From the NCBI GenBank assembly GCA_030141605.1, contig JAQGDQ010000458.1, positions 1 through 64,000 of the forward strand: 64,000 nucleotides of DNA, given 5' to 3'. The position numbers and the translations under genes were made by a program. This DNA comes from Tubiluchus corallicola. Its lineage: Eukaryota > Priapulida > Priapulimorpha > Priapulimorphida > Tubiluchidae. The notes under the pieces are model-generated. The model had not been told where the DNA came from and did not search any database. It worked only from the letters and a program-made list of their open reading frames with translations. Positions 3,636-58,747 of this stretch are shown here, piece by piece; positions within the stretch are counted from its first letter, which is position 1; every line of letters begins with the position of its first letter.

Positions 3636-3839
3636 CCAGCTACATTTCTGTGCATGTCTTTAAGTGATTTTCCACGTTGTACTTCCTCCTGTAACGTGCG
3701 TTGTCAGCTACGTTCCTATGCATGTCTTTAAGCGACTGTCCACAATGTACTTCCGATTGTAACACGCGTTATCAGCTACGTTCCTATGCATGTCTTTAAG
3801 TGATTTTCCACAATGTACTTCCGACTGTAACATGCGTTG
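3636..3839. repeat. 68-bp triplication of the ZF1 coding end
   Basis: Three direct copies start at 3636, 3704 and 3772. The rightmost copy covers the last codons of ZF1 (helix of the last finger plus stop). The other two are duplicated finger-end sequence now lying beyond the stop codon. The 68-base period is not a multiple of three, so the extra copies do not extend the protein. Confidence 0.85.
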
Positions 3840-4561
3840 CACCTAGGACACTTAAACGGCCGTTCTCCAGTGTGTTTTCTAACATGAGCTTGCAAATTGC
3901 TCTTCTTTTCCGTGTGATAAAAACACATTTTACACTGCCACAGCTTCTTTTTGCTGGTACACATGAGCGACTCACTACTCGTTTCTAGCTTATCAACAGA
4001 CCTGCTGCTCCTTGCACCTGATGAGGCTTTTTGCAATGTCGCCCTTTTCTGCTTAGATTCTCTGGAATGCTGACCTTGTGGATGCATTACATTTTTGACC
4101 AGATTAGCCACAGTTGGCTGCACTGGTTCAAGTTTCTGCACTTGTTGCAGTGGAAATGAACCAAATTGCCTAGATGCAAAAGACAGATCCACCCTTACAT
4201 TCCGATCCTCATTTCGAGTATTAGTACATGTTAACCCAATTGGGTCAGCATTGCTTGCACGAATGGATTCGAAAAAGTGATCGGTAATAGTGCGTGTACC
4301 ATCATAACTTTTTTCTTCTTCGACGTTCAATTCCATAAATTGGTGACTTGAACAAAGTTCACTCTTTATAGCAGTATCATCTAAATCACCAAGGCTGGCC
4401 GCGGGCAAATCAGTATTATATTGTTCCGTAGCCTGAGCCTCACACACCAGTATCTTACAATGCCATGTTCTTGTATGTGCGAAAAAGATATCCTCACTAA
4501 TAAAACATTCAGAGCAAGCTGTGCACTTGTAGTAAATTTCTGGGCCAGCACATCCCTCCAT
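3776..4561 (-). CDS. ZF1: array-family C2H2 zinc-finger protein, last finger CCHC
   Basis: Predicted nuclear DNA-binding protein of 261 aa. Residues 10-40 are the family N-terminal finger: C13-x2-C16-x12-H29-x4-H34, with additional C19, C35 and C40. The linker has an IKSE SUMO-type motif near K66. From W208 there are two C-terminal fingers: C-x2-C-x12-H-x3-H, then a second ending H-x3-C. Predicted helix contacts (-1,2,3,6) are K,S,N,A and R,Y,I,N. The start is the ATG at 4561, in MEGCAG. The frame stays open to 4600 only from a non-ATG codon. A TTTCAG acceptor puts the first exon base at 4616 (or 4604), so the 5' UTR is spliced. The coding end lies in a 68-bp triplication. A possible donor (CA|GTAAGTC on the minus strand) is near 5379. 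Membership in the family is clear; the biological target is unknown. Confidence 0.93.
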   Translation of the reverse strand: MEGCAGPEIYYKCTACSECFISEDIFFAHTRTWHCKILVCEAQATEQYNTDLPAASLGDLDDTAIKSELCSSHQFMELNVEEEKSYDGTRTITDHFFESIRASNADPIGLTCTNTRNEDRNVRVDLSFASRQFGSFPLQQVQKLEPVQPTVANLVKNVMHPQGQHSRESKQKRATLQKASSGARSSRSVDKLETSSESLMCTSKKKLWQCKMCFYHTEKKSNLQAHVRKHTGERPFKCPRCNACYSRKYIVENHLKTCIGT

Positions 4562-4616
4562 GTCAGAAGACAGCCGTGAGTAGTTTAGACGACTTATCAC
4601 CGGACTGAAAATTCCG

Positions 4617-5463
4617 CTGAAATAGTTTTACAGTGTTAATATAGAATCTGCTTAATAATCATTTACTAGCAGGCCCTATGATTTGCTTATAATTCAGCAG
4701 AGCACGGAACAATACTTAATTGGCTGGCGCATATTTGTAATGTGTATTTGCAAATTTAACGTTGTCAACGTAAGATGTCCACAGTCAGTAATAGACTCAA
4801 TGTATTTACAATGTTGAAAGATTATAAAAAAAGAATAAATACAGCATAAAGACAACAAAGAAGTAAATCCAACTATTGAAATTTTATTAATTTCACATAC
4901 AGCTTTTGCTAAAATAATTAATCGAGCTAATCACTGCTTACAAGGGATACACCGGATCCAGACCATTAAGTCCGAATTCCGATGAAAACTGCAGTGTGGA
5001 TCCAGTCCGGGTCTGGTCCTAGCTACAAAAATCAAGATCCGGCTCCGATAACAACGAATTCTTTTCGTCACTATCGAAACCTGATTAGGCTATCAAAAAT
5101 TATCATAATTATCCTTTAGTAACCAATAACTGACTCAACTACTAAAAATTTGAACAACAACGATGCAAATGAGTACAGTGCAAACAACGAAGATTATGGT
5201 AACACAAAGACCTTTGCTATACACACTCACATAAACCAAAGGATTAAAAAACATACAGATAACTTAAATTAGTTAAATCAGACAAATAACAGACGGTCAA
5301 CGAAAATGAGAAAAAGAATCAACATAACTTCCTTTCCGGTATAAAATATCAAATTATTAGCGAAAAAGTCATTAACGACTTACTGAGTACTTTACTAAAT
5401 TTCACTCACAACATAGCATGATAACTAACTACAGTCCTGACCATGAGTAATGTAATTGCCGTA
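4617..5463. other. Intergenic upstream of ZF1
   Basis: AT-rich spacer with no gene seen. Around 4950-5060 there are GGATCC/TCCGG-rich short repeats that may be a degraded mobile element. A minus-strand donor-like CA|GTAAGTC near 5379 could end an untranslated leader exon of ZF1. Confidence 0.4.
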
Positions 5464-6750: not shown

Positions 6751-7596
6751 TCATTCAATGCTGTGCACTGTTTTCAAGTGATTTTTCAACCTGTAATTCC
6801 TGTTGTAACATGCATCGCAGTAAGAGCATTTGAAAGGCTTGTGTCCTGTATGAGTTCTAACATGAGCTATCAAATTAGTCTTCCATTTTGTGTGATAAAA
6901 GCACATTTTGCACTGCCATAGCTTCTTCTGGCTTGTACTCATAAGTGATTCTTCACTAGCAAGTAAATTATCATCAGAGGTTTTCCCTATTGGGATTCTC
7001 CGTTTTCCCGTCTTTTGAGGCAAATTTTTTTTACGATGTTTGCGCTGCGTTTCTGTGCCGTCCTTAAACAACCTTCCTGTACGCTGTACATGTTGTACTG
7101 GCGTAAAGCGCGGCACGACTTCATGCAAGTACGTTGGCAATTCAAAATTCATTTCTGGCTTCACATTGGGTGCAGTTATACTATCACTGGTGCTAGCAAA
7201 CTGAAAGGAATCAACACTACTTGTATGGACACTTTCAGCAAAATCATTAGTAATACCACAGGTGTTGTCATAATCAGTTTCATCTTCTGGACTTGGTCTC
7301 ATTGCCCGTTGAACTGCCTGAGTTTCAGTCTTTATTATGGCACTCTGGGAAACTTCAGCACCGATCATAGACAAAGGATCGTCAGGGCATTGTACGTTGT
7401 ATAATTGTTCCGTGTCTTCGCCGCTCATAGACAAACAAGCATTATCAAGGCTATCATAATAATGTTCCGTGCCCTCGCATATTAGTATCTTACAATGCCA
7501 TGTTCTTGTATGTGCAAAAAATACTTCTTCACTGAGGAAGCATTCCGAGCAAGCTGTGCACTTGAAATAAATATCCAGGTATCCGTAATTTTCCAT
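6751..7596 (-). CDS. ZF2: array-family C2H2 zinc-finger protein
   Basis: 281 aa. The N-terminal divergent finger has the full set of family cysteines and histidines. The acidic linker carries two SUMO-type motifs, IKTE and VKPE. The basic patch TQRKHRKKN..GKRR is a likely nuclear localisation signal. The C-terminal finger pair from W227 is C2H2 then C2H2 (final spacing H-x4-H), with linker THTGHKP, where H replaces the usual E/K. Contact residues are W,T,N,A and R,Y,R,N. The start is the only ATG just upstream of the family motif (7596). The acceptor leaves the first exon base at 7646. The linker block FAESV..SSVDS resembles ZF1 and ZF3-5, so these five form a subgroup. Confidence 0.93.
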   Translation of the reverse strand: MENYGYLDIYFKCTACSECFLSEEVFFAHTRTWHCKILICEGTEHYYDSLDNACLSMSGEDTEQLYNVQCPDDPLSMIGAEVSQSAIIKTETQAVQRAMRPSPEDETDYDNTCGITNDFAESVHTSSVDSFQFASTSDSITAPNVKPEMNFELPTYLHEVVPRFTPVQHVQRTGRLFKDGTETQRKHRKKNLPQKTGKRRIPIGKTSDDNLLASEESLMSTSQKKLWQCKMCFYHTKWKTNLIAHVRTHTGHKPFKCSYCDACYNRNYRLKNHLKTVHSIE

Positions 7597-9787: not shown

Positions 9788-10576
9788 TCATTCGTTTGCC
9801 TTTTTGCATCTTTCTAAGTGATGTTTCAGGTGATGTTTGTGCCTATAACTTATATGACAATGGGGGCATTGAAATGGCCGCTCTCCTGTATGTGACCTAA
9901 TATGACCTATTAAATTCGTCTTCCATTCTGTGTGATAGGAACAAATCTTACAATGCCAAAGCTTTTTGTTACTGGTACAAATTAGCGATTCGCCACTCGA
10001 CTGTAATTTCTCAACGAGGTTCTTCCCTTGAGCAGTCAACGTTGTCTTTGGTTTTACTGGCCTTTGGTTTTTACGAACACCGGGATACTCATTTTGCAGT
10101 CTCTTTTTATTCTTAATTTGGCTCAGTGCAAGAACAGCACCTTGCATCGAGGTAAATACTTGCTCATTCTGTAGTCGGAATGATTGAAATGTCAAATCTG
10201 TTTCAGATTTTACATTATGATTGCCAAAAGCGGAACTGGAACTAGCTAGCTGAAGAGAAGCAACATTGTTTGTATAGGTGCAGCTGGGAAAATCCTCAAT
10301 ACCAATGGATGCATTATCACAACTGTCACTTTCTTCATGACTGGCTTCCATTTGCTCGACAAGTTGAGTCTCCAAAGCATTGTTCTCACCATCTTCATCG
10401 TCTGTCGTGCAGAAATAAGCAGTAGAAAAGCACTGGTCGTACTGTTCCGTACCCTCGCATACTAGTATCTTACAATGCCACGTTCTCGTATGTGCAAAGA
10501 AAATGTCTTCGCTGATAAAACATTCAGAACAAGCAGTGCACTTGAAGTAGATTTCTCGATTCATAAATTCTGCCAT
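9788..10576 (-). CDS. ZF3: array-family C2H2 zinc-finger protein, last finger CCHC
   Basis: 262 aa from the ATG at 10576 (MAEFMNREIYFKC). The frame runs to 10603 only from a GTG. The N-terminal family finger is complete. The acidic linker contains VKSE and the subgroup block IEDFPSC..LQLASSS. The C-terminal pair from W207 has contacts W,T,N,G and H,H,H,H. The second finger ends H-x3-C instead of H-x3-H, and four histidines at contact positions are unusual. The acceptor CAG leaves the first exon base at 10617. The next gene upstream, ZF4, stops 736 bases away. Confidence 0.93.
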   Translation of the reverse strand: MAEFMNREIYFKCTACSECFISEDIFFAHTRTWHCKILVCEGTEQYDQCFSTAYFCTTDDEDGENNALETQLVEQMEASHEESDSCDNASIGIEDFPSCTYTNNVASLQLASSSSAFGNHNVKSETDLTFQSFRLQNEQVFTSMQGAVLALSQIKNKKRLQNEYPGVRKNQRPVKPKTTLTAQGKNLVEKLQSSGESLICTSNKKLWHCKICSYHTEWKTNLIGHIRSHTGERPFQCPHCHISYRHKHHLKHHLERCKKANE

Positions 10577-11352: not shown

Positions 11353-12201
11353 TCATTTTTGTTCTCCTAGGCAGTTTTTCGAAGCCATGTGATACTTTAG
11401 ACTACTGCTGTCTTTGTAACGTGCGCCACATTTAGGACACTGGAAAGGTTTTTCTCCCGTATGGTTTCTGATGTGCGACAGCAAATTGTGTTTGTTTTCG
11501 GAATGATAAAAGCACATTTTACACTGCCACAGCTTCTTATTGCTAGTGCAAATAAGCGACTCTGCACTCGTCTGATGATTGCCAATGTTGTCGATCTGCT
11601 GCCTATTCCCAGTTATGCGAGAGGCAACTTGCCTTGGTCGTTTCTGTTGAAATCCTTTATTGTATGGTAGTTGCCTTTTAAAGCTTGTTTTGGAATGAGG
11701 TTCCAGGTGCGGCTTGTGTATTTCCTGTAGGGCAAGGTCTCCTTGTCTCAGATCTGATTCAGTTTTGACAGCACTCACTTCTGAATCAGTAGCTAGCTGA
11801 TAAAGCTCAACATCATGTTCAACTCCAGCGACAGTTCCATCGGTAAAGTCCTCAATAACTATGCATGCATCGTCATCATCATCATTGTCGTTATTTTGGC
11901 CATTACAAGATTCACGAAGGGCTAATTCTGTTGTCTGTGGAACAGACTGCGTATCATCAGTCTCATCCTTTATGCTCGTGTTCTCGGTGGTTTCATCATA
12001 AGGTACAGACAAGCTGGCTTCATTGGCATCAGGACAAGGTATAGGCAAGCTAGATTGATAGTTAAAATGTTCTGTGGCTTGGCAAACCAGTATCTTACAA
12101 TGCCATGTTCTTGTATGTGCAAAGAAAATGTCCTCATTAGTGAAACATTCAGAGCAAGCTGTGCATTTAAAGTAAATCTCTTGGTACACGCACTCTTCCA
12201 T
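11353..12201 (-). CDS. ZF4: array-family C2H2 zinc-finger protein, last finger CCHC
   Basis: 282 aa, starting at the ATG at 12201. The N-terminal finger is complete (C-T-A-C-S-E-C, then W-H-C-K-I-L-V-C). The very acidic linker has an eight-residue run of D/N (NNDNDDDDDD type) and two SUMO-type motifs, IKDE and VKTE. The C-terminal pair from W225 has contacts N,H,N,S and D,S,S,Y. The last finger ends H-x5-C, so it is CCHC. It is very close to ZF5 in the fingers (GAR-Y/F-KDSS), which points to a recent tandem duplication. The acceptor places the first exon base at 12240, only 251 bases from the ZF5 stop. Confidence 0.93.
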   Translation of the reverse strand: MEECVYQEIYFKCTACSECFTNEDIFFAHTRTWHCKILVCQATEHFNYQSSLPIPCPDANEASLSVPYDETTENTSIKDETDDTQSVPQTTELALRESCNGQNNDNDDDDDACIVIEDFTDGTVAGVEHDVELYQLATDSEVSAVKTESDLRQGDLALQEIHKPHLEPHSKTSFKRQLPYNKGFQQKRPRQVASRITGNRQQIDNIGNHQTSAESLICTSNKKLWQCKMCFYHSENKHNLLSHIRNHTGEKPFQCPKCGARYKDSSSLKYHMASKNCLGEQK

Positions 12202-12491: not shown

Positions 12492-13316
12492 TCAATTTGA
12501 AAGCAGATCACTCCAGTCCCTGTATATATTTGCGCATTTTGTCAATACGTGATACTTGAGACCACTACTATCTTTGAAACGCGCACCGCAGTTAGGACAT
12601 TGAAATGGTCGTTCCCCGGTGTGGTTCCTAATATGTGACAGCAAATTGAACTTCCTTTCTGTGTGATAAAAGCACATTTTGCACTGCCACTGCTTCTTTT
12701 TACTGGCAGAAATAAGTGATTCTGGACTGCCTATAGAGCTATCAATGCTTTGTTTACATCCCGTTTTGGGCAAAACGGTCCTCGTCAATGGCCCTCTAGA
12801 TCTCTTCTGGGCAAATGTGTTGCTATATTCATGGTGTAATCGCCCGCGAATTTGGTGTTCCGGCTTAGTTCTCGGCGCTTCCTGCACTGCAAAATGTTTT
12901 CGTCTACAATCTGATTGTGTTTTTGCAACAGTTATTTCAGGATTGCTAAATGATGCATATGAATGAATGTCATTCTCACGAGAAATTTCCGCAACAGATT
13001 CAAAATCTTCAACCACAATACGTGCATCATTATTATCAGTGCTGTCACTTTGATAATTCACCATTTTGCCAACATTGAATTCCATGTCATAGACAAGCCC
13101 TTCATCAACAGCTTCAGTCTTTGCATCATCATTGTTGAAACATTTGCTCTGAGACGTGTGTAAGTCAACATGATGAATATCTGTGCCTTCACACACTAGT
13201 ATCTTGCAATGCCATGTTCTTGTATGTGCAAAGAAAACATCCTCACTCAAGAAACATTCGGAGCACGCCGTGCACTTATAGTAAATTTCTTGACACACAA
13301 ATTCTTCCATAGTCAT
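12492..13316 (-). CDS. ZF5: array-family C2H2 zinc-finger protein, last finger CCHC
   Basis: 274 aa from the ATG at 13316 (MTMEEFVCQ); an ATG two codons later is an alternative. The open frame continues upstream only through a GTG that lies at the splice acceptor. The N-terminal finger is complete. The linker has AKTE and a diverged AKTQ at the usual SUMO-motif places. The basic patch KRSRGPLTR precedes the fingers. The pair from W210 has contacts R,F,N,S and D,S,G,Y. The last finger ends H-x4-C. The acceptor (TATTTCAG) leaves the first exon base at 13354. A donor CAG|GTAAAA at 13402/13403 would give an intron of about 48 bases; others are farther upstream. Confidence 0.93.
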   Translation of the reverse strand: MTMEEFVCQEIYYKCTACSECFLSEDVFFAHTRTWHCKILVCEGTDIHHVDLHTSQSKCFNNDDAKTEAVDEGLVYDMEFNVGKMVNYQSDSTDNNDARIVVEDFESVAEISRENDIHSYASFSNPEITVAKTQSDCRRKHFAVQEAPRTKPEHQIRGRLHHEYSNTFAQKRSRGPLTRTVLPKTGCKQSIDSSIGSPESLISASKKKQWQCKMCFYHTERKFNLLSHIRNHTGERPFQCPNCGARFKDSSGLKYHVLTKCANIYRDWSDLLSN

Positions 13317-14414: not shown

Positions 14415-15302
14415 TTATATTGAACAATGAAGGCTCTTGATGTGTCTGTTCAAGGTACTCTTCTGAGAAAATGATCTGAAACAGTAAGCACACTGATGCG
14501 GTTTTTCACCTGTGTGAGTTCTTATATGTTCTTTAAGGTGTTGCTTATAAGGAGTATGATAATAACACAATTCGCATTGCCACTCTTTCTGATTGCTGGC
14601 TCTCATGAACGTTTCGCCCTGCGCTGGTATACTAACTCTTTGCTGCACGGTTTTCCCTCGAGCAGTTGAATTTGGTTTCCTTTGGAAGCTCTTGCCCTGT
14701 ATTGCCACACCAGATCTTCTCTGCCAAGTTCTTCTTAGCGAACCAACACATGATCTCTGCGGAGAAGACAATGATTCGTTCTCAGAGATTAGCGCATCAC
14801 TGGTTTGCATTCTTTTCGCAGAGCCGTTCTCATCTCGCATGAAATCTGCTACAGTCTGATATGCTGGTGCCAGGTCACTGTCTGTTGTCGTTAAGTGCAA
14901 GGCATGTTCAGGCCCGGAATCGTCGTCAAAGGTATTATATTTTTCTGGCACTTCCAGTTCGTGCCTGAAATCTACATTGAAGTTACTATATTTTTCTATA
15001 CTAAAATCGTCTCCGTGCCGACTGAATGCTCCACTTTGGTGTTCACCAAGACTGGCAAAATTTTCTGGCATCACCCCCTTGATGTTTCTTTCGGCAGACT
15101 GACAAACGTGTGCTTCTGATTTTGCAATCGCATTCACTGGTTCTTCTTTTGAGTCGCCTTCCATACTAGTGCTCTGCCCTTCGCACACCAGTATTTTACA
15201 GTGCCACGTTCTGGTGTGTGCAAAAAAGACATCTTCACTCATGCAACATTCGGAGCAAGCCGTGCATTTGTAGTAGATTGGCGACTGCTGATACTCGTCC
15301 AT
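14415..15302 (-). CDS. ZF6: array-family C2H2 zinc-finger protein
   Basis: 295 aa from the ATG at 15302 (MDEYQQSPIYYKC); the longer frame to 15344 begins with TTG and crosses the acceptor. The N-terminal finger has C in place of the usual F after the third cysteine (CSECC). The acidic linker includes AKSE and two YNTF/YSNF-type repeats. It is followed by S/R-rich repeats (QGKSFQRKP, RGKTVQQRV, QGETFMRAS) just before the fingers. The pair from W241 has contacts Y,Q,H,E and Q,S,T,R and ends H-x4-H, a regular C2H2. The acceptor leaves the first exon base at 15333. A strong minus-strand donor at 20557, 5.2 kb upstream, is the best leader-exon candidate. Confidence 0.93.
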   Translation of the reverse strand: MDEYQQSPIYYKCTACSECCMSEDVFFAHTRTWHCKILVCEGQSTSMEGDSKEEPVNAIAKSEAHVCQSAERNIKGVMPENFASLGEHQSGAFSRHGDDFSIEKYSNFNVDFRHELEVPEKYNTFDDDSGPEHALHLTTTDSDLAPAYQTVADFMRDENGSAKRMQTSDALISENESLSSPQRSCVGSLRRTWQRRSGVAIQGKSFQRKPNSTARGKTVQQRVSIPAQGETFMRASNQKEWQCELCYYHTPYKQHLKEHIRTHTGEKPHQCAYCFRSFSQKSTLNRHIKSLHCSI

Positions 15303-22237: not shown

Positions 22238-23077
22238 TTATCCCTGCGGTTCAAGTCGTGACACATCCGATCCGTGAGAACACACAGAACTTTTTTCTAG
22301 GTGTCTTTTTAGATCTCTGTTATGCTTGTAACTTGTGTTACACGTAAAACAATGAAACGGCCGTTCTCCGGTGTGTTTTCTAACATGAGCTTGTAAATTG
22401 CACTTCTTTTCTGTGTGATAAAAGCACATTTTGCACTGCCACTGTTTTTTGTTACTTACACACATGAGTGACTGGCCTTCAACAGAATTATCGGCTGTAG
22501 GTCTACTCTGTCTGTAAGATGACGCACTTGACTTCTTTGACGGCTTCCGGGACGCCATTTTGAATGATTTGTCGAATCTTTTTTGCTGTCGAACATAACC
22601 CGTAGGGATACGCACTGCATCTTCAAAGCACCCCAACTGCAGTAAACTTGTTTGTAGTGAAGTGTTCTCCAACGAAGATAAATTGACATCTGTTCCTGCA
22701 TTTGTTTCTAATTCTAGATCAATGATTTCAGGTTTAGCATTTACAAGTTCACCTTCTGCAAAAGCTTGCGCAACCTCACCGGAAATATCTCCACACAAAA
22801 CGTTACCGCGATCACAAATATTGTCTACGTTTCTGTCGAAGTCGTTAACATCGCCAGCAGTGGCCTGAAACAACTCCACCTTGACGCTTTTGTAACCACA
22901 TTCCTCATTGGTCAACGATGCCAAACCAGGATCTTGCTGGTATTGTTCCGTACTCTCGCACACTAGAATCTTACAATGCCATGTTCTCGTGTGTGCAAAG
23001 AATATTTCTTCGCTCATAAAACATTCAGAGCAAGCTGTGCATTTGAAGTAAATTTCTCGAGGCAGAAATTCATCCAT
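22238..23077 (-). CDS. ZF7: array-family C2H2 zinc-finger protein, unusual last finger
   Basis: 279 aa, ATG at 23077 (MDEFLPREIYFKC). The N-terminal family finger is complete. The linker carries VKVE and AKPE. The first C-terminal finger from W213 is almost the same as in ZF1 (FYHTEKK-C/S-NLQAHVRKHTGERPF), although six genes lie between them in order. Contacts are K,C,N,A and H,R,D,R. The last finger ends H-x6-C, a long and non-standard spacing that may weaken zinc binding. A C-terminal tail of about 15 residues follows. The acceptor gives the first exon base at 23124, only 355 bases from the ZF8 stop. Confidence 0.93.
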   Translation of the reverse strand: MDEFLPREIYFKCTACSECFMSEEIFFAHTRTWHCKILVCESTEQYQQDPGLASLTNEECGYKSVKVELFQATAGDVNDFDRNVDNICDRGNVLCGDISGEVAQAFAEGELVNAKPEIIDLELETNAGTDVNLSSLENTSLQTSLLQLGCFEDAVRIPTGYVRQQKRFDKSFKMASRKPSKKSSASSYRQSRPTADNSVEGQSLMCVSNKKQWQCKMCFYHTEKKCNLQAHVRKHTGERPFHCFTCNTSYKHNRDLKRHLEKSSVCSHGSDVSRLEPQG

Positions 23078-23479: not shown

Positions 23480-24268
23480 CTATGTCCAATTAGAAGGTGA
23501 GTGTTCATTAGCATTTCTTGCTGCGCGGTGAACATTAACTTGGTGAGTTCGTAAATTGCCTTTTAGGGTGAAGCATTTGTTACAATCATTGCACTGAAAT
23601 GGTTTTTCTCCTGTGTGAGTCATAATGTGTCTTCTAAGATCACCTTTCAGACTCGTGTGATAAAAGCACAAGTCACACTGCCATCGAGTCTTATTATTTG
23701 CACTCATTAAGAAATCTTTTTGTGTCGCGTAATCAACCTTAAGTCTTGGAGCACGAGTGCCGGATGTCTTGCGCGAAAATCTTGTTGCCGATGTTCGTTT
23801 TTGCTTTAAGCTGTTTCTTTGCTGTGGATGTCCACTCTGCAGGACACCAAGACCAGCAAAAGGGAGGTGACTGTTAGCAGGGTTACACTGAAATGAAGGC
23901 AAATGGTCTCCTTTACCAGGTGAACACACATCACCACTCACGGGTTCAATTGCCATACTTTTACCAGTTCTATATTCATTTTCATTTATTTTATCACACC
24001 GTTCACTATCGACCGCTTCGTTAACTCCACAGCTACTAGAGAGCAATTCGACATTTTCATAGTCGACAAGCGGCTCGGTTTTTGGTACAACGATAACGTG
24101 TTCTTCGTGCAAACTTTGTTCGTGTTCGTAGCTTGAACTGCTACCCTCACACACTAGAATCTTACAGTGCCATGTTCTTGTATGTGCAAAGAATATGTCT
24201 TCACTCATGAAACACTCGGAGCAAGCGGTGCATTTGAAGTAAATTTCCTGAAGCAGTTGTGCGTCCAT
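23480..24268 (-). CDS. ZF8: array-family C2H2 zinc-finger protein
   Basis: 262 aa, ATG at 24268 (MDAQLLQEIYFKC). The N-terminal finger is complete. The acidic linker has PKTEP, a SUMO-like motif lacking the leading aliphatic residue. The basic segment includes KQKRTSATRFSRK. The pair from W196 is regular C2H2 (last spacing H-x4-H), with contacts L,G,D,R and L,G,N,T. The shared frame LRRH-x-MxHTGEKPF groups it with ZF9. The acceptor is TTTTCCAG, with the first exon base at 24313; it is the only family acceptor with CCAG. Confidence 0.93.
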   Translation of the reverse strand: MDAQLLQEIYFKCTACSECFMSEDIFFAHTRTWHCKILVCEGSSSSYEHEQSLHEEHVIVVPKTEPLVDYENVELLSSSCGVNEAVDSERCDKINENEYRTGKSMAIEPVSGDVCSPGKGDHLPSFQCNPANSHLPFAGLGVLQSGHPQQRNSLKQKRTSATRFSRKTSGTRAPRLKVDYATQKDFLMSANNKTRWQCDLCFYHTSLKGDLRRHIMTHTGEKPFQCNDCNKCFTLKGNLRTHQVNVHRAARNANEHSPSNWT

Positions 24269-26749: not shown

Positions 26750-27544
26750 TCAGGTCACGTAATTCTGATGAATCACCGAGTGAGCTTTCAAATTACCTTT
26801 TCTATTAAAACGTTTTTTACAGTAATTACATTCAAACGGTTTTTCCCCCGTATGAACCATGACATGTCTCCTAAGGTCAGTTTTGGACCGGGTATGAAAA
26901 AAACAGAGGTCACACTGCCACTGAATATTTTTACTAGCACTCATGAATGAGCCTCCCTGGGCCGGGTTCACACTAGCGGCTTGAGCGCGAGACGGCTGAT
27001 GTTTGGTAACCCTACGCCTAACTGCCGATCTTCTTTTTTGTCTTGCGGTAAGGCCGTGCATTTCCGGGCGTTTGGTGAGTGTAAGACCAAAACGAGGAAC
27101 GAGCAAGTGACCGTCATCGGCGTTGTGTCCAAGCAGTCCTGGACAATCTTCCGTTCTGTCGGCAAATTCAGCTGTTCTGTTGCTAAAAGCTTCTCCATTA
27201 TCGCTCTCAAGACTCACCTCAGTCACTTCATTGGCTTCAGACATCAGAAGCATGTGTGTTCTATCAAATTCAGGGGAAGTAATCACGTCTTCAGCAGCGC
27301 TAATGTCAACTGCACCACAGATAAGATCACTTTCGTTTTCATACGTTGCAGGATCACATTTAACAGCGGCTAGAGCGTGTTCATCGTGTGCACCCGGTAC
27401 ATCTATATTTGGATTGTTACCGTCGCATACTAGTATCTTACAATGCCATGTTCTCGTATGCGCAAAGAATATCTCCTCACTGATGAAACATTCAGAGCAT
27501 GCTGTGCATTTGAAGTAGATATCTCGAGAAGTGCTTTGTTCCAT
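26750..27544 (-). CDS. ZF9: array-family C2H2 zinc-finger protein
   Basis: 264 aa, ATG at 27544 ([13 protein letters not shown]). The N-terminal family finger is complete, ending I-L-V-C. The SUMO-type motif is degenerate (VKCD). A strong basic stretch, [15 protein letters not shown], precedes the fingers and is a likely nuclear signal. The pair from W209 is regular C2H2 with contacts S,T,D,R and R,G,N,A. Its partner in similarity is ZF8. The acceptor leaves the first exon base at 27576. The upstream gap of 6.5 kb before ZF10 is filled by degraded mobile DNA. Confidence 0.93.
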
Positions 27545-34034: not shown

Positions 34035-34832
34035 TCACCTGGTATGAAGTTTCAAATGTTTTGTTAAGGTGAAATTCCTACTGAAACATTTGTTGCAGTA
34101 GCTACACTTATACGGTTTTTCTCCCGTGTGCTTTCTAATGTGTCTTATGAGACCGCTCTTATGAGTTGTATGATAAAAGCACAAGTTACACTGATACCTC
34201 CTCTGATTCGTAACACTCATTAAAGTTTCGCTTTGTTCCACACTCACACTGCTGTTTTGAGTAGTACTGATTCTTACCGGCGCACTCTTTTGAATAGTCC
34301 TCCGTACCGGCACTTCTTTGTGCGTTAACTGCTTTTTTTGCTGCTCGCGTCTCTCCCAGGAAGGCTTGTTGCTAACACCGGAAATAGAGGTTGATGAGTA
34401 AGCGTCATCAGGACCAAAAGATACCAGGTGTTTTGTTTCAGTTTTATTGGTAGATAAGTGCTCGCCAACATCAGTACATTCGCTGCCATGGGTACCTCCA
34501 TGGACTACATTGGGTTTCTCAGAATCTTGCACGTGTAGCAATTGTTCATCATTATGTTCATCGCTACTCGCTAGCTGCTCAACAGTAACGTTATTCTCAA
34601 CATCATACTCAGTCAATTCCATGGCTTCAGTTTTCACTACGTTTACCGTCTGGTCGTATTCGTTCTTCAAGGTTGGTTTAGGAGTGGTCTCACTCGTACT
34701 GTTGCCTTCGCTAACCAGTATTTTACAGTGCCATGTGCGAGAATGCGCAAGGAATACCTCCTCTTTCAGAAAACACTCAGAGCACGCAGTGCACTTAAAA
34801 TAGATGTCACGATCCAGCATAAATTCTTCCAT
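34035..34832 (-). CDS. ZF10: array-family C2H2 zinc-finger protein
   Basis: 265 aa, ATG at 34832 (MEEFMLDRDIYFKC). The N-terminal finger keeps C-x2-C-x2-C and W-H-C-K, but the last cysteine is serine (ILVS). The SUMO-type VKTE is followed by AMELTEYD, the same element as in ZF11 (IKTEVMELSDYE). The pair from Y213 starts YQC instead of WQC. Contacts are H,S,G,R and R,F,T,K, and both fingers are regular C2H2. Closest to ZF11. The acceptor leaves the first exon base at 34875. Confidence 0.93.
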   Translation of the reverse strand: MEEFMLDRDIYFKCTACSECFLKEEVFLAHSRTWHCKILVSEGNSTSETTPKPTLKNEYDQTVNVVKTEAMELTEYDVENNVTVEQLASSDEHNDEQLLHVQDSEKPNVVHGGTHGSECTDVGEHLSTNKTETKHLVSFGPDDAYSSTSISGVSNKPSWERREQQKKQLTHKEVPVRRTIQKSAPVRISTTQNSSVSVEQSETLMSVTNQRRYQCNLCFYHTTHKSGLIRHIRKHTGEKPYKCSYCNKCFSRNFTLTKHLKLHTR

Positions 34833-37659: not shown

Positions 37660-37765
37660 CTCAGGAGTACGTGTAATGACTATTGTCAGCAACTAAACTT
37701 TGAGAGTTAGATCTCAGGAGTACGTGTAATGACTACTTTCAGCAACTACACTTTGAGAGTTAGAT
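37660..37765. repeat. 53-bp duplication at the ZF11 coding end
   Basis: CTCAGGAGTACGTGTAATGAC begins at 37660 and again at 37713. The right copy encodes the C-terminal tail and stop of ZF11; the left copy is beyond the stop. It parallels the 68-bp triplication at the end of ZF1. Confidence 0.85.
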
Positions 37766-38517
37766 ACTGCGTGAATTCTTTTAAAGTGTTTGTTTAGATC
37801 ACTGTTTCTGCTGAAAGATCTGTCACATTGACTACACTGATAAGGCCTTTCTCCCGTGTGCTTTCTAATGTGTCTGACGAGACCAGTCTTATGAGTTGTG
37901 TGATAAAAACACAAATTACATTGATACTGTCTTTGATTACAAACTGTACTAACACTCATTAACGTTTCCGGATGTTCCACGCTGCAGTTTTCAGGATCCA
38001 TTTTCCCTGTAACATTCTCTTGAGAAAACCTCGATGAACGTTCCAAGTTTCGCTCTGTCCTCCTCCGCGGTTGAGGTTTGCGCAAAGGCTCGCTGATGAA
38101 ACCAAGACCAGCATCTGTGCTTTGATGAGCATTAGAGTCGAAAGAAACCGGTCGGCTTGTTTCGGCATCTCCGCTATCAAGGCGAACACATATGCTAGTT
38201 TGCGCAGTTTCATAAACTGCATGCTGTTCTTCATTATCTTCTGCATGAATATGATCAGCGTTAATGAATTCATGCTTTTCATCAATACAGTTTTGACTTT
38301 CATAATCGGACAACTCCATAACCTCGGTTTTAATCGTATTAACAATGTTTTGCTCTTCTTGATCTTCAGAAATTAATCCTCTTGGACAGTTGCCTTCATT
38401 GACCAATACTTTGCAGTGCCACATCCTTGAATGAGCAAAGAATGTCTCTTCTTCTAGAAAATACTCAGAGCAAGAGGTGCACTTGAAGTAGACATCTTGA
38501 AGCAGAGGCTCCTCCAT
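37714..38517 (-). CDS. ZF11: array-family C2H2 zinc-finger protein, N-finger lacks one cysteine
   Basis: 267 aa, ATG at 38517 (MEEPLLQDVYFKC). The N-terminal finger keeps the zinc-binding C-x2-C and both histidines, but the third cysteine is tyrosine (CSEYF) and the last is asparagine (VLVN). The linker contains IKTEVMELSDYE as in ZF10, and RKPQPRRRTER precedes the fingers. Contacts of the pair from Y198 are H,T,G,R and R,S,D,K; the last finger is H-x4-H. A 19-residue S-rich tail ends the protein and lies in a 53-bp duplication. The acceptor leaves the first exon base at 38564. Confidence 0.93.
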   Translation of the reverse strand: MEEPLLQDVYFKCTSCSEYFLEEETFFAHSRMWHCKVLVNEGNCPRGLISEDQEEQNIVNTIKTEVMELSDYESQNCIDEKHEFINADHIHAEDNEEQHAVYETAQTSICVRLDSGDAETSRPVSFDSNAHQSTDAGLGFISEPLRKPQPRRRTERNLERSSRFSQENVTGKMDPENCSVEHPETLMSVSTVCNQRQYQCNLCFYHTTHKTGLVRHIRKHTGERPYQCSQCDRSFSRNSDLNKHFKRIHAVSNSQSVVAESSHYTYS

Positions 38518-41486: not shown

Positions 41487-42908
41487 TTACGCAAGCAGCG
41501 TTGGGGCAGGTTGTGCTGGTTCCAGTACTGCCACCTCTCCACTTTCAAGAGCGACATTCACTCCACTTTTTGGTAGGCTTTCAATTGGAAAATCTGTTTG
41601 ATTGTCAAGCTTACCATGATGCACTTGAAATGCCGGTGCCTGAATCGGAAAATGAGTTCGTAAATGCTTCGTTAAGTTACCGTTATCACTAAAACGTTTA
41701 TCGCAGAACGAACAAGGAAACGGCCGTTCCCCCGTGTGCCTTCTAATGTGCCTTATCAAATGGGCCTTATAACGAGTGTTGTAATAACACAATTCGCACT
41801 GCCATATTTTTCCCATGCTAATTGTTCCCTGACCCAGCTGTACGTCACCACACTCGTAAAACGACATGGGTTCCTCGGCGCTTGACATGCTCTTCCTCGA
41901 AAGGTTCACGGACTTTTTTGGTCTTGGAACTAACTGCATGTTGTCCTGGTGGCGATTTGAGCTCAAAGTAGATTCGACGCCTGTGAGATCGGAGTGTGGC
42001 AAATCTTGAGCACTGGTGGTGCACACGAGGCCCGATTGATCAGCATCAACAGCTTCTGCTGATTCCGATGCCACTGGTTCTTCATGTTCATCGATGGCAG
42101 TCGTTCCTTTCTTTTTTCGTAGGCTTTCAATGGGAAAATGCGTCCGTAAATGTTTCAACAAATTGCCCCTGTCACTAAAACGTCTCCCGCAGTAATCACA
42201 AGATAGTGGCCGTTCACCCGTGTGTTTCCTAACGTGCCGTGTGAGATGAGTTTTATAACGCGTGTGATAATCGCACAGTTTACACTGCCATCGGTGCTTT
42301 GCAGTCATAGAAGATTTACCCAAACCTTCACCATCGGAAAGAGACGAAGAAGTTTTGGATTTGTCAATCTGCACTTCCTTTGCTATGAATTTTTTTCTCA
42401 CTCGCGAGTGATGCTGATGTCGTTTTCGTAAAATCGATTTAGTAAATTTTATTTTCAGACTAGAATTGGATGGCTGCTGAGCGACATACGACGAACGTGT
42501 CATCCTGGATGACGTTTCCGCTTGTTTAAGCATTTTTGTTTCCTCGCCATCGCGCTCGGGAGGGATTTTAACGATACCGCTATCTTCCTCGCAGTAACTT
42601 TCTTCACGACATTTTTCACTGTCAACTTCATGCAGTAATTCATTTTTACTAAAGCCATCATAACCCAGAAGCTCCTCTAATGTTATGCCTTGCTCTTCTT
42701 GGCAATCCAAGACATCGACAGGTTCAAGTTTGATGTTTTCACTTTCTTCTTGCACGTTCGACGTACATATTCTTACAGTCTGCCCTTCGTTGACGAGAAC
42801 TTTGCAATGCCACGCCCTTGAGTGAGCGTAGAACACAGCTTCAGACAGAAAGCATTCCGAACAGGAAGTGCATTTGAAATACATGTCCGGAAGTATGTCC
42901 TTCTCCAT
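41487..42908 (-). CDS. ZF12: array-family zinc-finger protein with duplicated finger pair
   Basis: 473 aa, the longest member; ATG at 42908 (MEKDILPDMYFKC). The N-terminal finger is of the S-C-S-E-C variety, ending VLVN. IKLE is followed by PVDVLD. The basic patch LRKRHQHHSRVRKKF precedes a first finger pair from W207 (contacts Y,T,H,R and D,G,N,K). A second pair from W369 has almost the same contacts (Y,A,H,R and D,G,N,K). Each pair is followed by HFPI, and FPIESL occurs after both, so the whole module including its flank was duplicated internally. About 50 residues follow the last finger. The acceptor leaves the first exon base at 42938. A donor CTTG|GTAAGTC at 46965/46966 is a leader candidate. 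Confidence 0.93.
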   Translation of the reverse strand: MEKDILPDMYFKCTSCSECFLSEAVFYAHSRAWHCKVLVNEGQTVRICTSNVQEESENIKLEPVDVLDCQEEQGITLEELLGYDGFSKNELLHEVDSEKCREESYCEEDSGIVKIPPERDGEETKMLKQAETSSRMTRSSYVAQQPSNSSLKIKFTKSILRKRHQHHSRVRKKFIAKEVQIDKSKTSSSLSDGEGLGKSSMTAKHRWQCKLCDYHTRYKTHLTRHVRKHTGERPLSCDYCGRRFSDRGNLLKHLRTHFPIESLRKKKGTTAIDEHEEPVASESAEAVDADQSGLVCTTSAQDLPHSDLTGVESTLSSNRHQDNMQLVPRPKKSVNLSRKSMSSAEEPMSFYECGDVQLGQGTISMGKIWQCELCYYNTRYKAHLIRHIRRHTGERPFPCSFCDKRFSDNGNLTKHLRTHFPIQAPAFQVHHGKLDNQTDFPIESLPKSGVNVALESGEVAVLEPAQPAPTLLA

Positions 42909-48135: not shown

Positions 48136-49158
48136 CTACTGAACCTGAGCATGAGTTCGCAAATGCTTAGTCAGATTACTGTTATCCGCGTAACGTTTGT
48201 CGCAGTAAGCGCAATGATATGGTTTCTCTCCTGTATGTTTCCTAATGTGCAACTTCAAATGACTTTTGTACTCCGTGTGATAAAAGCAGAGATCACACTG
48301 CCATTGCCGCTTATTGGTGACAGTCATAAAAGTCTGCTTTTCCGTGCCTCCCGTACCGCTTGTTAGTTGAGAGCCAACAGTACCTGAGTTCTTTGACTGG
48401 GCGTGGCTGCGCATGTGAGCCACTAACTTGCCTTTTTCTGCAAAGCGTTTACTGCAGTAAGAACACTGGAATGGCTTCGCTGATGCGCTTACGTGCGCGG
48501 AGGTGCGCACCTTGAAATGCCTCTTATTGCTTGTACGATAAGAGCACACGTTGCGCTGCCATTGTTCCCTATTTGAGTTATTCGTTTGTGTGACTTCTGG
48601 AAAATTGTTACGAGGCAACAGCTCTGTATTACGAAAAGATCCACCTTGCAACTGCAAATCTGCAATCCCAGTTCTTTTAGTGTTTTGTGGACACGGCAAG
48701 CGCTCATTAACCTCAGTCAAACCGTCTGAAAATGCACCTAATAACATAGGTCTATTACTACACCCGTTAATACTATACAGATCGAAAACGTCTGCTACCT
48801 CTGCAGTTTCATCAACTTTATTACACTCTTCAGCATCAGATGTATGCGCAATAATTTCTTCATCGAGTCCTTGACAGCGATACGCTGCTGGGAATGCTTC
48901 AGCGTTTGTTGCGGCCATTTCTTCACACTCTTCCATTTTAAGTTGTAACTTATCGCTCGGAATGGCAATGTATGCTTCTTGCCGACTTCCACAAGCGACG
49001 TCTGTGGATGATTCATCCACGTACGAATTGTCGCCCTTGCTAACCAAAATCTTACAATGCCATGTTCTCGAGTGAGCAAAAAATACAGCCTCCGTCATGA
49101 AGCATTCGGAACACGATGTGCATTTAAAGTAGATTTGAGAATCATCTTCATCTTCCAT
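48136..49158 (-). CDS. ZF13: array-family zinc-finger protein with a decayed middle finger
   Basis: 340 aa, ATG at 49158 (MEDEDDSQIYFKC). The N-terminal finger is of the S-C-S-E-C type, ending ILVS. LKMEECEE is the SUMO-type motif. Two finger pairs follow. The first, from W200, starts WQRNVC, losing its first zinc cysteine, and has VRTSAH where the first histidine should be. The linker is SASAKPF, not TGEKPF, so this finger is dead. Its partner (contacts E,G,K,A) keeps all ligands. The second pair from W286 is intact (Y,S,H,L and D,S,N,K). It groups with ZF12, with which it shares the doubled module. The acceptor leaves the first exon base at 49186. A strong donor CTGGAG|GTGAGT at 49633/49634 would give a 0.45-kb intron. 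Confidence 0.93.
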   Translation of the reverse strand: MEDEDDSQIYFKCTSCSECFMTEAVFFAHSRTWHCKILVSKGDNSYVDESSTDVACGSRQEAYIAIPSDKLQLKMEECEEMAATNAEAFPAAYRCQGLDEEIIAHTSDAEECNKVDETAEVADVFDLYSINGCSNRPMLLGAFSDGLTEVNERLPCPQNTKRTGIADLQLQGGSFRNTELLPRNNFPEVTQTNNSNREQWQRNVCSYRTSNKRHFKVRTSAHVSASAKPFQCSYCSKRFAEKGKLVAHMRSHAQSKNSGTVGSQLTSGTGGTEKQTFMTVTNKRQWQCDLCFYHTEYKSHLKLHIRKHTGEKPYHCAYCDKRYADNSNLTKHLRTHAQVQ

Positions 49159-52844: not shown

Positions 52845-53876
52845 TTATTCTCCAGTATGAGTTTTTGCATGATTCTCATAATGACTTTTAAGCTTCGTAT
52901 AATATGGACACAGATCACACTGCCAAAACTTCGGCTTAACCCATTTGGCAAAACGTAAGCTTCTGGCGGGAACACGATTACGAGATCCAGGAACTCTTGT
53001 GGCTTTACTTCTGACGGAAGTGAGAGAGGTTACATTTTCAAGTGACATTTCATTATGCTTGCGCAAGTGTGCAGTTAACGTGCTCTTTTCTTTGAAGTGT
53101 TTAGTGCACTGAGGACAATGAAAAGGCTTCTCTCCTGTATGAGTTCTAACGTGGCTGTCATAATGGCTTTTGAACCTTGTAATATATGAGCACAACTGAC
53201 ACTGCCATCGCTTGTAAGCTTTAGGCTTAATGCGATACGAAGGGCTAAATGCGGGCAACGGCTGAGAGCACTCACTTTCCAACTGAGAACACTCACTTGC
53301 TGCTTGCGACAGAAATTGCCCCGATGCATTTTGGTCATCTGGTGTTATGCCGTTATTCTGCCACATGCTCCTAACGGTGTAGTGATTGGCAGTGTTATTA
53401 AGATCTGCAGATATACGTTCGTCATTTGTATTCGTATAGGAAAGCACAAGCTGATGATTTTGTACATCATTCGATGATTTATGATCACCATTGTCAAATT
53501 CTACATTCTCAGTACAGACATCTACCCTGTCCTTTTGAGCATATTCGTTATTACCAAATGCAGAAGGCACATCACTTCTGCTAATGCTTTGAAGAGATGA
53601 TGACTCTCCAAAATTGCTTTCGATCGTTACGGCATTGGCAACCTCAATTTTTACAGAACCATCTGCATCATCGGGGCATTTACCACTGTCGTCGGGACCT
53701 TGCTGTACAACCATTGCTGACTCACACCGGTTAAGATTTTGACCTACGCTGATAAGTATCTTGCAATGCCAGAATCTTGTATGCACGAAGAATTTTTCCT
53801 CGGTTGCCAAGCACTCAGAACAGGCTGTGCATTTATAAAACATTTGCAAGTCGTGATCATCAACCATGGAGTCCAT
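52845..53876 (-). CDS. ZF14: array-family zinc-finger protein, truncated in its last finger pair
   Basis: 343 aa from the ATG at 53876 (MDSMVDDHDLQMFYKC); the longer frame to 53915 begins with GTG and crosses the acceptor. It is the most diverged N-terminal finger (CSECLATEEKFFVHTRFWHCKILIS) but keeps all zinc ligands. VKIE is the SUMO-type motif. A first pair from W224 is intact (F,S,H,S and E,S,T,A). A second unit from F317 has one intact finger (L,S,H,N). The protein then stops directly after THTGE, where the paralogs continue KPF plus another finger. Downstream bases in other frames still encode CFYC, NRK and LIRHLRICH. The acceptor leaves the first exon base at 53894. The donor CAG|GTGAGA at 55466/55467 is a good leader candidate. 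Confidence 0.92.
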   Translation of the reverse strand: MDSMVDDHDLQMFYKCTACSECLATEEKFFVHTRFWHCKILISVGQNLNRCESAMVVQQGPDDSGKCPDDADGSVKIEVANAVTIESNFGESSSLQSISRSDVPSAFGNNEYAQKDRVDVCTENVEFDNGDHKSSNDVQNHQLVLSYTNTNDERISADLNNTANHYTVRSMWQNNGITPDDQNASGQFLSQAASECSQLESECSQPLPAFSPSYRIKPKAYKRWQCQLCSYITRFKSHYDSHVRTHTGEKPFHCPQCTKHFKEKSTLTAHLRKHNEMSLENVTSLTSVRSKATRVPGSRNRVPARSLRFAKWVKPKFWQCDLCPYYTKLKSHYENHAKTHTGE

Positions 53877-55466: not shown

Positions 55467-55515
55467 CTGACATGCACCAGTTTTCGGCTTTGAACTGGAA
55501 AATGACACAAATAAC
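55467..55515 (-). other. Candidate ZF14 leader exon end (CAG|GTGAGA)
   Basis: Minus strand ATGTCAG|GTGAGACAG is close to the ideal donor. Last exon base 55467. Joining to 53894 would give an intron of 1.57 kb. The exon's 5' end is unknown; the 21-bp minisatellite begins directly upstream. Confidence 0.45.
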
Positions 55516-55522
55516 AAAATAA

Positions 55523-55880: not shown

Positions 55881-57299
55881 TCACAACCACTAGTACACGG
55901 TCATGAGTTATAATAAGAAAAGCGTCATACTCTAGCCCATCTATAAAAGTAAACAGCACGAAACAAAAAAAAAACCACTTTTCAGTACTTACACAAGCTT
56001 GAATAAATTAATAAAACAACAAAATTTAAATATCATAATTAAAAAGAAAACACGTATAAAACAGTATGCCCAACAGAAAGACTAATGTAAAGTTTTAGCT
56101 TTACCAAATGGTTATTTTAACACTGAAAACGTATCAATCATTTTGATACCATGACCACTATACACTAACAACTGTACTTAATGCAATACATACAACTCCA
56201 AACATTTTGATTAAATTAACAACCAGTCTTTTCACACTGTTTATAAACTGATACGTGAAGACCACCATCTTGAGAAATGCTGAAAGAAGAAGGGGGGCTG
56301 ATAAAATGTCAGTCAACTTGCAAATGAGTACAAAACGACCCGGCATAATGATATTTATAAATGTAGATGCATTGCTGTTTTATTGGTACGGCTAATAGCT
56401 CAAAACTAACTGAAATAGTTTAATGGGAGAAAGAGATAATTTATTAATGCAGCCAAACGTCGTTATACTGCCAAACTCGCTCACAGCCTGCAAAATGACC
56501 AGGAACGAAGTGGCCGTATTCAAATGTATATAAAACTAACATGTTATATCACCACCTATTACTCGCCAGGGAAATTAATATACATGTTCAATGGGAAAAT
56601 ACTGTCAGCAGTCTCAACTAGCACCAGTGGCTTCTCAATATAATGCCAAGTGCACGAGTCTGATAGTTGGGTTGTTGATAGTTCCGTCGAGTTGCTGACG
56701 CTGACCAGTGGTCACACATTATGAAAAATAATGCAGCATGCTATCATGTTTTGATTGTTTATAAGCTGTACTGCACATTGTACAATCACAATAATATTAT
56801 TGTCAATGTCATAATGACAAGAAAACATGTGGCTAAGTTACATTTCTAAATTTGTAGTTACGACAAAACCTTTTTTACATATGCATGTTTAGTTTAGCAG
56901 CAGGCTTACAATCTATTACATAGCTGAGTAGATGATACATTTATTATGAAAATAAAAAGCCTCTAATAAAGATGATTGACCGTTAGTGAGTCAACAAATT
57001 GCAAATTAATTTAATCATTTTCTTTTAATTCATTAACTTTTAGAATTAAAAATTAAGGATCCTCTAACTTGTGGACATTTGTCTGATTGTTTTCTGATTC
57101 GTTTTATGGCAGAATTTAACACCTTGTAAAAATCCCAAACTGACTCACAGACTGATTTATTTTTTCTTCCAAAGTGGGCAGTATAAGGAGGTTTGAATGT
57201 AGATAAACTTGGCATTTTAACTACCAAACGGCAGTCACTTTCAAGAGACTTAAAAGATTTAAATCTAAAAGTTCAATTTAAATTTAAACAAAATAAACT
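55881..57299. other. Intergenic between ZF14 and ZF15
   Basis: AT-rich with no gene. Minus-strand GTAAGTACTG donor-like site near 55990. Open frames at 56158 and 57033 have no domain. Confidence 0.4.
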
Positions 57300-57767
57300 T
57301 CTATGACTTTTCCCTGACGAAATATTGATTTTCCATGACCAAGATAGGCAGAAATTGCATTACCAGTATACATATTCAAACATTTTTGTGTATGGACATT
57401 CATACATATACTGATATATAATGTGTCAACGCAGTTGCAGTAGTGGTAACGAAATTACACTAATCACATTAAATGAACTTTCTTAATCCAATCATTATTT
57501 TTGGAACAGAAATCAAAACTGGGAACCTGCAGTAGCAAAATTTTATTTGAACACGAATCGGTGAAAAATGTGTTTGGAAAAATATCGGTTCACACTGATT
57601 ATTTTTGCAACCCTTTCCAATTTCCCTGACTTTTCGCCCCATTTTCATCATTTTCCCTGAATTTTTACCAAATTATCTTCTTCCCTGACTTTTCCATGGC
57701 TTTCCAGGATAGCCTGTATTTTCAAGGATTTTCCAGGATTTTTCCTGACCATAGGAACCCTGCATGC
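57300..57767. mobile_element. Probable hAT-like element with CCCTGA/CCATGA words
   Basis: The right end GACCATAGGAACCCTG (complement CAGGGTTCCTATGGTC) follows many TTTTCCCTGA, TTTCCATGG and TTTTCCAGGA words. This is a pattern seen in a widespread hAT-like family. The left end near TGACTTTTCCCTGACG is indistinct. Confidence 0.55.
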
Positions 57768-57880
57768 TCTTCTCATAAGAACGACAGCCATTAGATAGAT
57801 GAAATATTGAGTTTATCTAATCAACAAATCATCTCTTATTCATTCAATACATTGTGCATATAAGTACCACGGATAAAATA

Positions 57881-58747
57881 TCACCAAGATGATGTCACGG
57901 AAATAACAGAAGGAGCTGCGGGAGAGTGATGAGCCCGCCGATGCTTCGACATGTTGCTCTGATCGCTAAATCGTTTGCCGCAGTGTTCACAAGAGTACGG
58001 TTTTTCGCCGGTGTGCTTACGAATGTGCCGCTGCAAGTGCTCTCTGTTTTCCGTGTGATAAAAGCACAATTTGCACTGAAACTGACGTTTATTGCTGATT
58101 TGCATGAAGGAGTTCGGATCACCAGGATTTTCAATGTCTTCAACTTTTGGAAACGTTTTCCTGCCGCACATTTTTTGAGTGTTCTTTCGCTGCTGTAACC
58201 CCTGCTTTGGTCTAACTTTGCCTCTGCTAGGTCGACAATGCATGCTGGTTTTGGAAAATGACCGAGAAACACTACTCTGCGGTAAGGCAAATGCTCCCAC
58301 GGGTGTTGACAAAGAGTTAACCTGCATTTCCGTTTTTACCACGCCTTCTATGTCACACGGACTGTTAAAGTGAAAGGAAGGCACCTTCGCTTTTGCTATA
58401 GCAACTGATCCTGCTAAAGTGTGAGTTAGATCATTCTCTGCATCTAAAACGATAGCACAAGAGTCAGCATCATTATTATAGCTAAACATCTCCATCATGT
58501 CTCTTTCCACATTAGCACTATAGCCATTGTCTACATCATCTAATTCTTCCTCAATAAAAACGTTTGGTTCAGCTTTGAGCGCTACAGTGGCTGCACTGGC
58601 TTCATATGCGGAGGTCGGAGGATTCTGTCCGATGCAAACTAGTATCTTGCAATGCCACGTTCTCGTATGTGCAAAGAAGATCTCCTCGCTCATAAAACAT
58701 TCCGAACACGCTGTGCATTTGTAATAAATCTGCGCTTCTTCCTCCAT
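57881..58747 (-). CDS. ZF15: array-family C2H2 zinc-finger protein, first gene in transcription order
   Basis: 288 aa, ATG at 58747 (MEEEAQIYYKC), the shortest leader before the N-terminal finger. That finger retains the final cysteine (ILVC), like ZF1-9 and unlike its neighbours ZF10-14. The linker has two SUMO-type motifs, LKAE and VKTE. The basic region RPSRGKVRPKQG..QRKN precedes the pair from F223, which starts FQC. Contacts are N,E,H,R and D,S,N,K, and the last finger is H-x3-H. A 15-residue S/P/V tail ends the protein. The acceptor leaves the first exon base at 58770. The RPS9 start is 3.4 kb away in divergent orientation. Confidence 0.93.
   Translation of the reverse strand: MEEEAQIYYKCTACSECFMSEEIFFAHTRTWHCKILVCIGQNPPTSAYEASAATVALKAEPNVFIEEELDDVDNGYSANVERDMMEMFSYNNDADSCAIVLDAENDLTHTLAGSVAIAKAKVPSFHFNSPCDIEGVVKTEMQVNSLSTPVGAFALPQSSVSRSFSKTSMHCRPSRGKVRPKQGLQQRKNTQKMCGRKTFPKVEDIENPGDPNSFMQISNKRQFQCKLCFYHTENREHLQRHIRKHTGEKPYSCEHCGKRFSDQSNMSKHRRAHHSPAAPSVISVTSSW

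Follow-up and report, generated by a model that had tools for sequence, protein, structure and literature searches.

Fifteen genes in a stretch of 64,000 nucleotides from the priapulid Tubiluchus corallicola (assembly GCA_030141605.1, contig JAQGDQ010000458.1, positions 1 to 64,000; hereafter the window, which lies in contig C2149 of a genome of 343.5 Mb in 2344 contigs) belong to an expanded zinc-finger family whose proteins have three parts: a constant N-terminal module, a freely changing linker enriched in a SUMO-type motif, and C-terminal C2H2 fingers. This plan, the pattern of selection on its parts and the enrichment of the motif come directly from the computation. The interpretation that we consider probable, taken as a whole, is that the proteins are transcription factors with a shared protein-contact module, a SUMO-acceptor linker and variable DNA-reading fingers. 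Large zinc-finger families with one common N-terminal domain arose repeatedly, and a shared finger under very strong constraint, combined with a SUMO motif that persists in a linker otherwise free to change, makes a clean case. Identifying the partner of the module would reveal the property common to these regulators.

Organization and extent of the family

The window has 15 ATG-to-stop frames of 261 to 473 residues, which run from 3776 to 58747 and share the minus strand, and each encodes, in order, the N-terminal module, the linker and the C-terminal C2H2 fingers. One module, about 34 residues long, opens 15 of 15 genes, as an earlier sequence-only reading had stated with a length of about 30 residues, and its first cysteine is residue 11-16 of every protein. 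That reading described a family of fifteen genes, a number that proved far too low: a 34-residue module query against the same genome returned at least 115 matches at E<=1e-3 (128 scored candidates) on 43 contigs, 15 of them inside the window, so that the family comprises about a hundred genes.

We read 97 of the 115 matches, and 18 were never fetched. The 97 comprise a main set of 84 genes (the window together with loci L009-L048), three matches that failed the filter for this set, and 10 divergent genes. The filter demands C1, C4, H17, H22 and H-C-[KRQ] (columns counted from the first cysteine), and those columns are therefore constant by construction. Two of the failing matches (L019 482292 and L025 45465) have all ligand residues and C23, and the third (L020 500902) is degenerate, without H17 and H22. 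Linkers, tree and fingers were analysed in the 77 genes of the main set that exceed 240 residues. Among the seven shorter genes six close early and one merely runs off its locus; finger remnants lie below the stop in two of the seven.

Sequence and predicted fold of the module

The patterns C-x2-C-x12-H-x4-H and W-H-C-K-[IV]-L are present in all 15 window modules, as had been claimed, while the claimed opening C-x2-C-x2-C-F is exact in 12, the exceptions being genes 11 (Y), 6 (C) and 14 (L). C1, C4, H17 and H22 are likewise invariant in the window. Of the hydrophobic residues expected of such a finger, F at helix +4 occurs in 15 of 15 modules, and the other position, C4+4, holds F in 13. Over the 84 genes C7 is kept in 82, E11 and F14 in 84, W21 in 81 and L26 in 82. 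Position 28 is C in just 38 genes and S in 40, and C28 was rejected as a family-wide extra ligand; the two or three extra cysteines reported earlier come down to two typical ones, C7 and C23. The 10 divergent genes, which lie elsewhere in the genome and carry 11 modules, keep C1, C4, F14, H17 and H22, and C23 is found in 10 of the 11 modules, which were picked without requiring it. Since divergent modules keep C23, this cysteine would be old, and C7 would have come later or be needed less.

AlphaFold2 folded the module of gene 8 alone as a beta-beta-alpha unit (strand 9-13, bridge 19-20, helix 23-33; zinc is absent from the model) with a predicted local distance difference test score (pLDDT) of about 84 over residues 11-30, and placed a third strand at residues 37-41. 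By pattern and predicted fold the module is a C2H2 finger; it is followed by a hydrophobic tail that is conserved and may form a third strand.

Database comparisons place it in the C2H2 superfamily. With the 15 window modules the best Pfam match was CPxCG_zf (E 0.0032, 2 members), followed by zf-C2H2_4, all weak; zf-C2H2 was listed for five modules (best E 0.026) and zf-C2H2_4 for four (best E 0.022). No module passed the Pfam gathering cut-off, the first member scoring 13.5 bits against 27 and the others being judged by their E-values; single C2H2 fingers commonly score low against Pfam. When divergent members were included (18 rows), the best matches were C2HC_ASCIZ (E 0.0011, 1 member) and zf-C2H2_4 (E 0.0016). 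ZAD (PF07776) gave no match at E<=10, and KRAB, SCAN, BTB, BED and THAP were not listed by Pfam, in 10 of the 15 full window proteins or in the 15 modules, in agreement with the earlier view that the module is not ZAD, KRAB, SCAN or BTB. NCBIfam, a prokaryote library, gave no match.

Against the PDB, the 15-member profile found 2i13 (E 0.015) and, in second row, the CLAMP N-terminal finger 7nf9 (E 0.092, not significant). A broader profile with divergent members reached 2i13 at E 2.5e-9, a value that applies to the entire multi-finger chain. Its matches lay mostly over the finger; just the five BCL11A rows whose end is at profile position 40 (E 0.8-1) extended into the tail. Foldseek of the module gave no PDB match at E<=0.001. 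The module still belongs to the C2H2 superfamily.

Selection on the module, linker and fingers

Ratios of nonsynonymous to synonymous change (dN/dS) were obtained from six non-overlapping gene pairs (identity 46-90%) out of 1173 pairs covering 80%. They were 0.057 for the module, 0.481 for the linker, 0.102 for the finger scaffold and 0.358 for the contact positions -1, 2, 3 and 6, and the module is indeed, as first noticed, conserved far beyond the linker. In 16 reciprocal-best pairs, residues differed at 12.5% of sites in the module, 35.5% in the scaffold, 45.3% at contact positions and 60.8% in the linker.

The sameness of the module might simply reflect recent duplication or gene conversion, with no special function, and a tree of the 77 genes does group them by contig overall (17 label changes as compared with 41.9 in shuffles). 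Conversion would, however, lower synonymous divergence in the module, and in the six pairs the proportion of synonymous differences (pS) is equal in module and linker (0.44 and 0.46) while that of nonsynonymous differences (pN) is 0.037 in the module as compared with 0.277 in the linker. Because pS is equal and pN far lower, we attribute the sameness to selection on the protein and not to recent copying; gene conversion or mere youth was rejected as its cause and is extremely improbable.

From the grouping by contig in the tree, growth of the family appears to have been mostly by local duplication, with birth and death of genes. The expansion of a gene family marked by an N-terminal module, as originally proposed, is in keeping with this. 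The window's own 15 genes show 6 label changes as compared with 13.6 in shuffles; contigs without clustering are represented by the six genes of C1347 (6 changes, 5.9 in shuffles) and by the two-gene groups C2191, L032 and L035. Relatives in prokaryote genomes and viral contigs were not confirmed among 75 and 10 pattern matches, respectively, a result that bears little on spread among animals.

Variable fingers and a constant module

Exactly two C-terminal fingers, by pattern, are present in 49 of the 77 proteins. The residues at -1, 2, 3 and 6 of the first C-terminal finger form 73 distinct quartets in 77 proteins, and those of the second 68 in 74; within the window all 15 first-finger quartets differ. 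The same positions of the module show 29 quartets in 77 proteins, and four of these (SDIA, SDVA, TEVA and SEIA) together account for 40 of the 77. The module carries a median charge of -2, and the C-terminal fingers one of +3. As judged from the sequences, this contrast in quartets and charge is the pattern of a putative constant docking module plus a variable reader.

These data also bear on the idea that the module binds DNA like any other C2H2 finger and stays constant because every paralogue has to recognise one common half-site. It does fit the C2H2 pattern and the predicted fold of such a finger, but its net acidic charge, the hydrophobic and acidic residues at its contact positions, the conservation of the tail past the second histidine, and the linker, of median 179 residues and low model confidence, that parts it from the other fingers all make this quite improbable.

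The linker and a SUMO-type motif

The linker has a median length of 179 residues in the 77 proteins, and in a full-length model of gene 8 it lies mostly below pLDDT 50, both finger regions being higher. The motif [VI]KxE, the SUMO acceptor consensus, occurs in 61 of 77 linkers, as compared with 6.7 in shuffles (maximum 14), at a distance from the module that differs between genes. Control motifs fell below their shuffle means (reversed E.K[VI] in 5 linkers, [VI]KxD in 5, [VI]RxE in 2), and motifs for CtBP, HP1 and Groucho were not enriched in the linkers. Among 63 linkers without a mutual BLAST match, 47 have [VI]KxE, as compared with 5.3 in shuffles (maximum 13). This motif, which was absent from the finding of the sequence-only reading, is the strongest new clue to function.

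Proposed function

We propose that these single-coding-exon genes encode transcription factors that work in three parts. The module would be a C2H2 finger that binds zinc and, through the surface of its helix and its hydrophobic tail ([IV]Y[FY]KC ... HCKIL[VI]), contacts protein instead of reading DNA; its partner would be one common cofactor or a second copy of itself. The disordered linker, through its SUMO acceptor motif, may help to recruit repressive chromatin factors, and the C-terminal C2H2 fingers, usually two, may pick the DNA site, with contact residues that differ between almost all paralogues. Tandem duplication would then yield new DNA readers, all docking on the same partner. The binding of zinc, a protein partner, the attachment of SUMO and a repressive effect are the inferred elements of this proposal.

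Several observations weigh against this proposal. The motif is present in 10 of the 15 window linkers and missing from the other five, and by eye it was seen in only four of the 10 divergent carriers (L049, L054, L056 and L058); it is also short, and relatives may share it by descent, although the 63 linkers mentioned above lack mutual matches. The module's own family matches are weak (Pfam, PDB profile, Foldseek), and the third strand shrinks to one residue in the full-length model. A lone finger whose residues are not basic is still able to contact DNA. Finally, contact positions vary only slightly above the rest of the finger (0.45 as compared with 0.36, p 0.03), with helix +1 and +5 equally variable; since these two vary as much as the contact positions, positive selection on DNA reading is not claimed.

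A different role for the module, with ZAD proteins as the example, would be homo- or heterodimerisation, so that joined two-finger proteins read a longer site and paralogues combine. The two C-terminal fingers of most members are too few alone for a long site, and the module has conserved aromatics and a beta-branched tail; ZAD families multimerise through the N terminus and, in the excerpted sources, TTK-type BTB families are described as doing the same. On the other side, the excerpts of PMC9226498 state that CLAMP 40-153, which holds the N-terminal finger of the nearest solved analogue, formed no dimer in vitro; in yeast two-hybrid, however, CLAMP 1-153 did interact with the full-length protein. 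Given the lack of dimers of this CLAMP fragment in vitro, docking on a partner is favoured over dimerisation, which we regard as rather unlikely.

More tentatively, and with less than even confidence, the extended C2H2 finger, paired with a SUMO acceptor in the linker, could be the universal docking module of a silencing complex and could also have moved onto a non-finger DNA-binding domain (as in L058). The family would then match the KRAB and FiNZ systems in design but have evolved independently of them, probably in an invertebrate. At locus L058 (G000:C816:2350-3400) the module is followed by VKQEP and by a CENP-B-like N-terminal DNA-binding stretch in place of C2H2 fingers; the match of this stretch (E 0.0045, 17.1 bits) is under the Pfam cut-off of 21.2. 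The arrangement suggests that DNA-binding domains of other kinds may also be joined to the module.

The other nine divergent carriers are multi-finger proteins. L051 (G000:C1139:123400-125200) has two tandem modules at the N terminus of one protein, the first with C23 replaced by H. L049 (G000:C545:327500-329700) has the module in a 1689-residue open frame, with IKTEP behind the module and AT-hook-like GRPKKK repeats.

Comparison with known families

Zinc-finger families whose members share an N-terminal domain while their fingers change are known; in the present one, that domain is itself a modified C2H2 finger. Insect ZAD zinc-finger (ZNF) proteins have the same plan, with a zinc-binding N-terminal module, a linker and C-terminal C2H2 fingers, but ZAD is a longer four-cysteine domain, and KRAB, also unlike the module, is helical and zinc-free. 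Excerpts of PMC7655104 describe lineage-specific amplification of ZAD-ZNF genes (PF07776), a feature that the present family may share. The tetrapod KRAB-ZNF proteins, according to excerpts of PMC10547256, likewise join a common cofactor-contact region to diversifying DNA fingers.

The same excerpts (PMC10547256) describe the FiNZ-ZNF genes of cyprinid fish, in which a short conserved N-terminal sequence defines a C2H2 expansion with variable DNA fingers. That sequence is Glu-rich and 28 residues long, and the module, of about 34 residues, is net acidic. FiNZ differs in having its own exon and in being reported there as without resemblance to known domains, whereas the module is a C2H2 finger and shares one exon with the rest of the protein; about 700 FiNZ genes are given for zebrafish (PMC10547256), as compared with the at least 115 matches here, and we liken the two systems by description and not by sequence.

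Drosophila CLAMP is the nearest solved analogue and a precedent for the proposed protein contact, in that its N-terminal finger (7nf9) is an isolated C2H2 finger with atypical contact residues which, in the excerpts of PMC9226498, binds the MSL2 protein mainly through its helix. Its match to the module was not significant with either profile (E 0.16 with the broader one) or with Foldseek (E 2.7), and the HMMER alignment ends before the second histidine, leaving the HCKIL tail outside the shared stretch. The zinc finger of AFV1p06 from an archaeal virus (2lvh) differs from the module in a long loop before its third strand and in Glu as fourth ligand; its likeness (14% identity, Foldseek E 4.6) is so low that it may mean a common arrangement only. 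Titles and abstract openings on such families and on the module motif included no paper describing the module, which is not proof that it is unpublished.

The window genes

In 72 of the 84 family genes an acceptor-like site (TTNYAG or TYTYAG) lies upstream of the start, at a distance of at most 80 bases, as compared with 28% of 2000 random stretches. We read this enrichment as a sign that the coding part probably forms the last exon and that a 5' untranslated exon precedes it.

In the window, the minus-strand genes are, in order of position, as follows. Gene 1 (3776..4561, 261 residues) has its module at about 4436-4537, two C-terminal fingers starting at residues 210 and 238, and IKSE in the linker. 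Gene 2 (6751..7596, 281 residues; module 7471-7572) carries IKTE and VKPE, gene 3 (9788..10576, 262 residues; module 10451-10552) VKSE, and gene 4 (11353..12201, 282 residues; module about 12076-12177) IKDE and VKTE. The linkers of gene 5 (12492..13316, 274 residues; module 13185-13286) and gene 6 (14415..15302, 295 residues; module 15177-15278, with F8 replaced by C) are without [VI]KxE. Gene 7 (22238..23077, 279 residues; module about 22952-23053) has VKVE. The motif is absent again from gene 8, for which structures were predicted at full length and for the module alone (23480..24268, 262 residues; module 24143-24244), and from gene 9 (26750..27544, 264 residues; module 27419-27520). Gene 10 (34035..34832, 265 residues; module 34704-34805) has VKTE, and gene 11 (37714..38517, 267 residues; module 38392-38493, with C7 replaced by Y) has IKTE.

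The longest protein is that of gene 12 (41487..42908, 473 residues; module 42783-42884), with four C-terminal fingers as two pairs and IKLEP in the linker. Gene 13 (48136..49158, 340 residues; module 49033-49134) has three C-terminal fingers by pattern and no [VI]KxE, and gene 15 (57881..58747, 288 residues; module 58628-58729) has VKTE. Gene 14 (52845..53876, 343 residues; module about 53742-53843, with F8 replaced by L; linker VKIE) has its stop right behind the HTGE linker of the third C-terminal finger, after which, by eye, a finger-like start follows in another frame; it is probably a shortened or decaying member of the family.

Other features of the window and genome

Neither an Rfam match nor a tRNA was found in the window. 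A 212-residue poly-serine/asparagine frame at 44206-44844 on the plus strand is a GTA/TAA microsatellite and probably no gene. The open frame at 55330-55959 on the minus strand, outside the zinc-finger family, consists mostly of a 21-base tandem repeat (17 copies, 55524-55881). Satellite-like arrays occupy 8321-9089 (59-base unit, 13.1 copies, 97% matches) and 49847-50336 (23-base unit, 21.3 copies, 94% matches).

Elsewhere in the genome, COX1 gave no match. L059 and L060 (G000:C1461 and C1820) each have a phosphagen kinase gene in a long frame without interruption, and a third such gene, on C1070, is split into several matches. L059 is creatine-kinase-like, with 513 bits to a mitochondrial creatine kinase; among single-domain arginine kinases, 3ju5 scored 405 bits and the remaining rows 113-255 bits. 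Arthropods and molluscs use arginine kinase, so this is a weak sign that the animal is no arthropod. The top row of L059 by whole-sequence score is the two-domain arginine kinase 4rf6, which we take to be a sea anemone enzyme, with 549 bits over two stretches.

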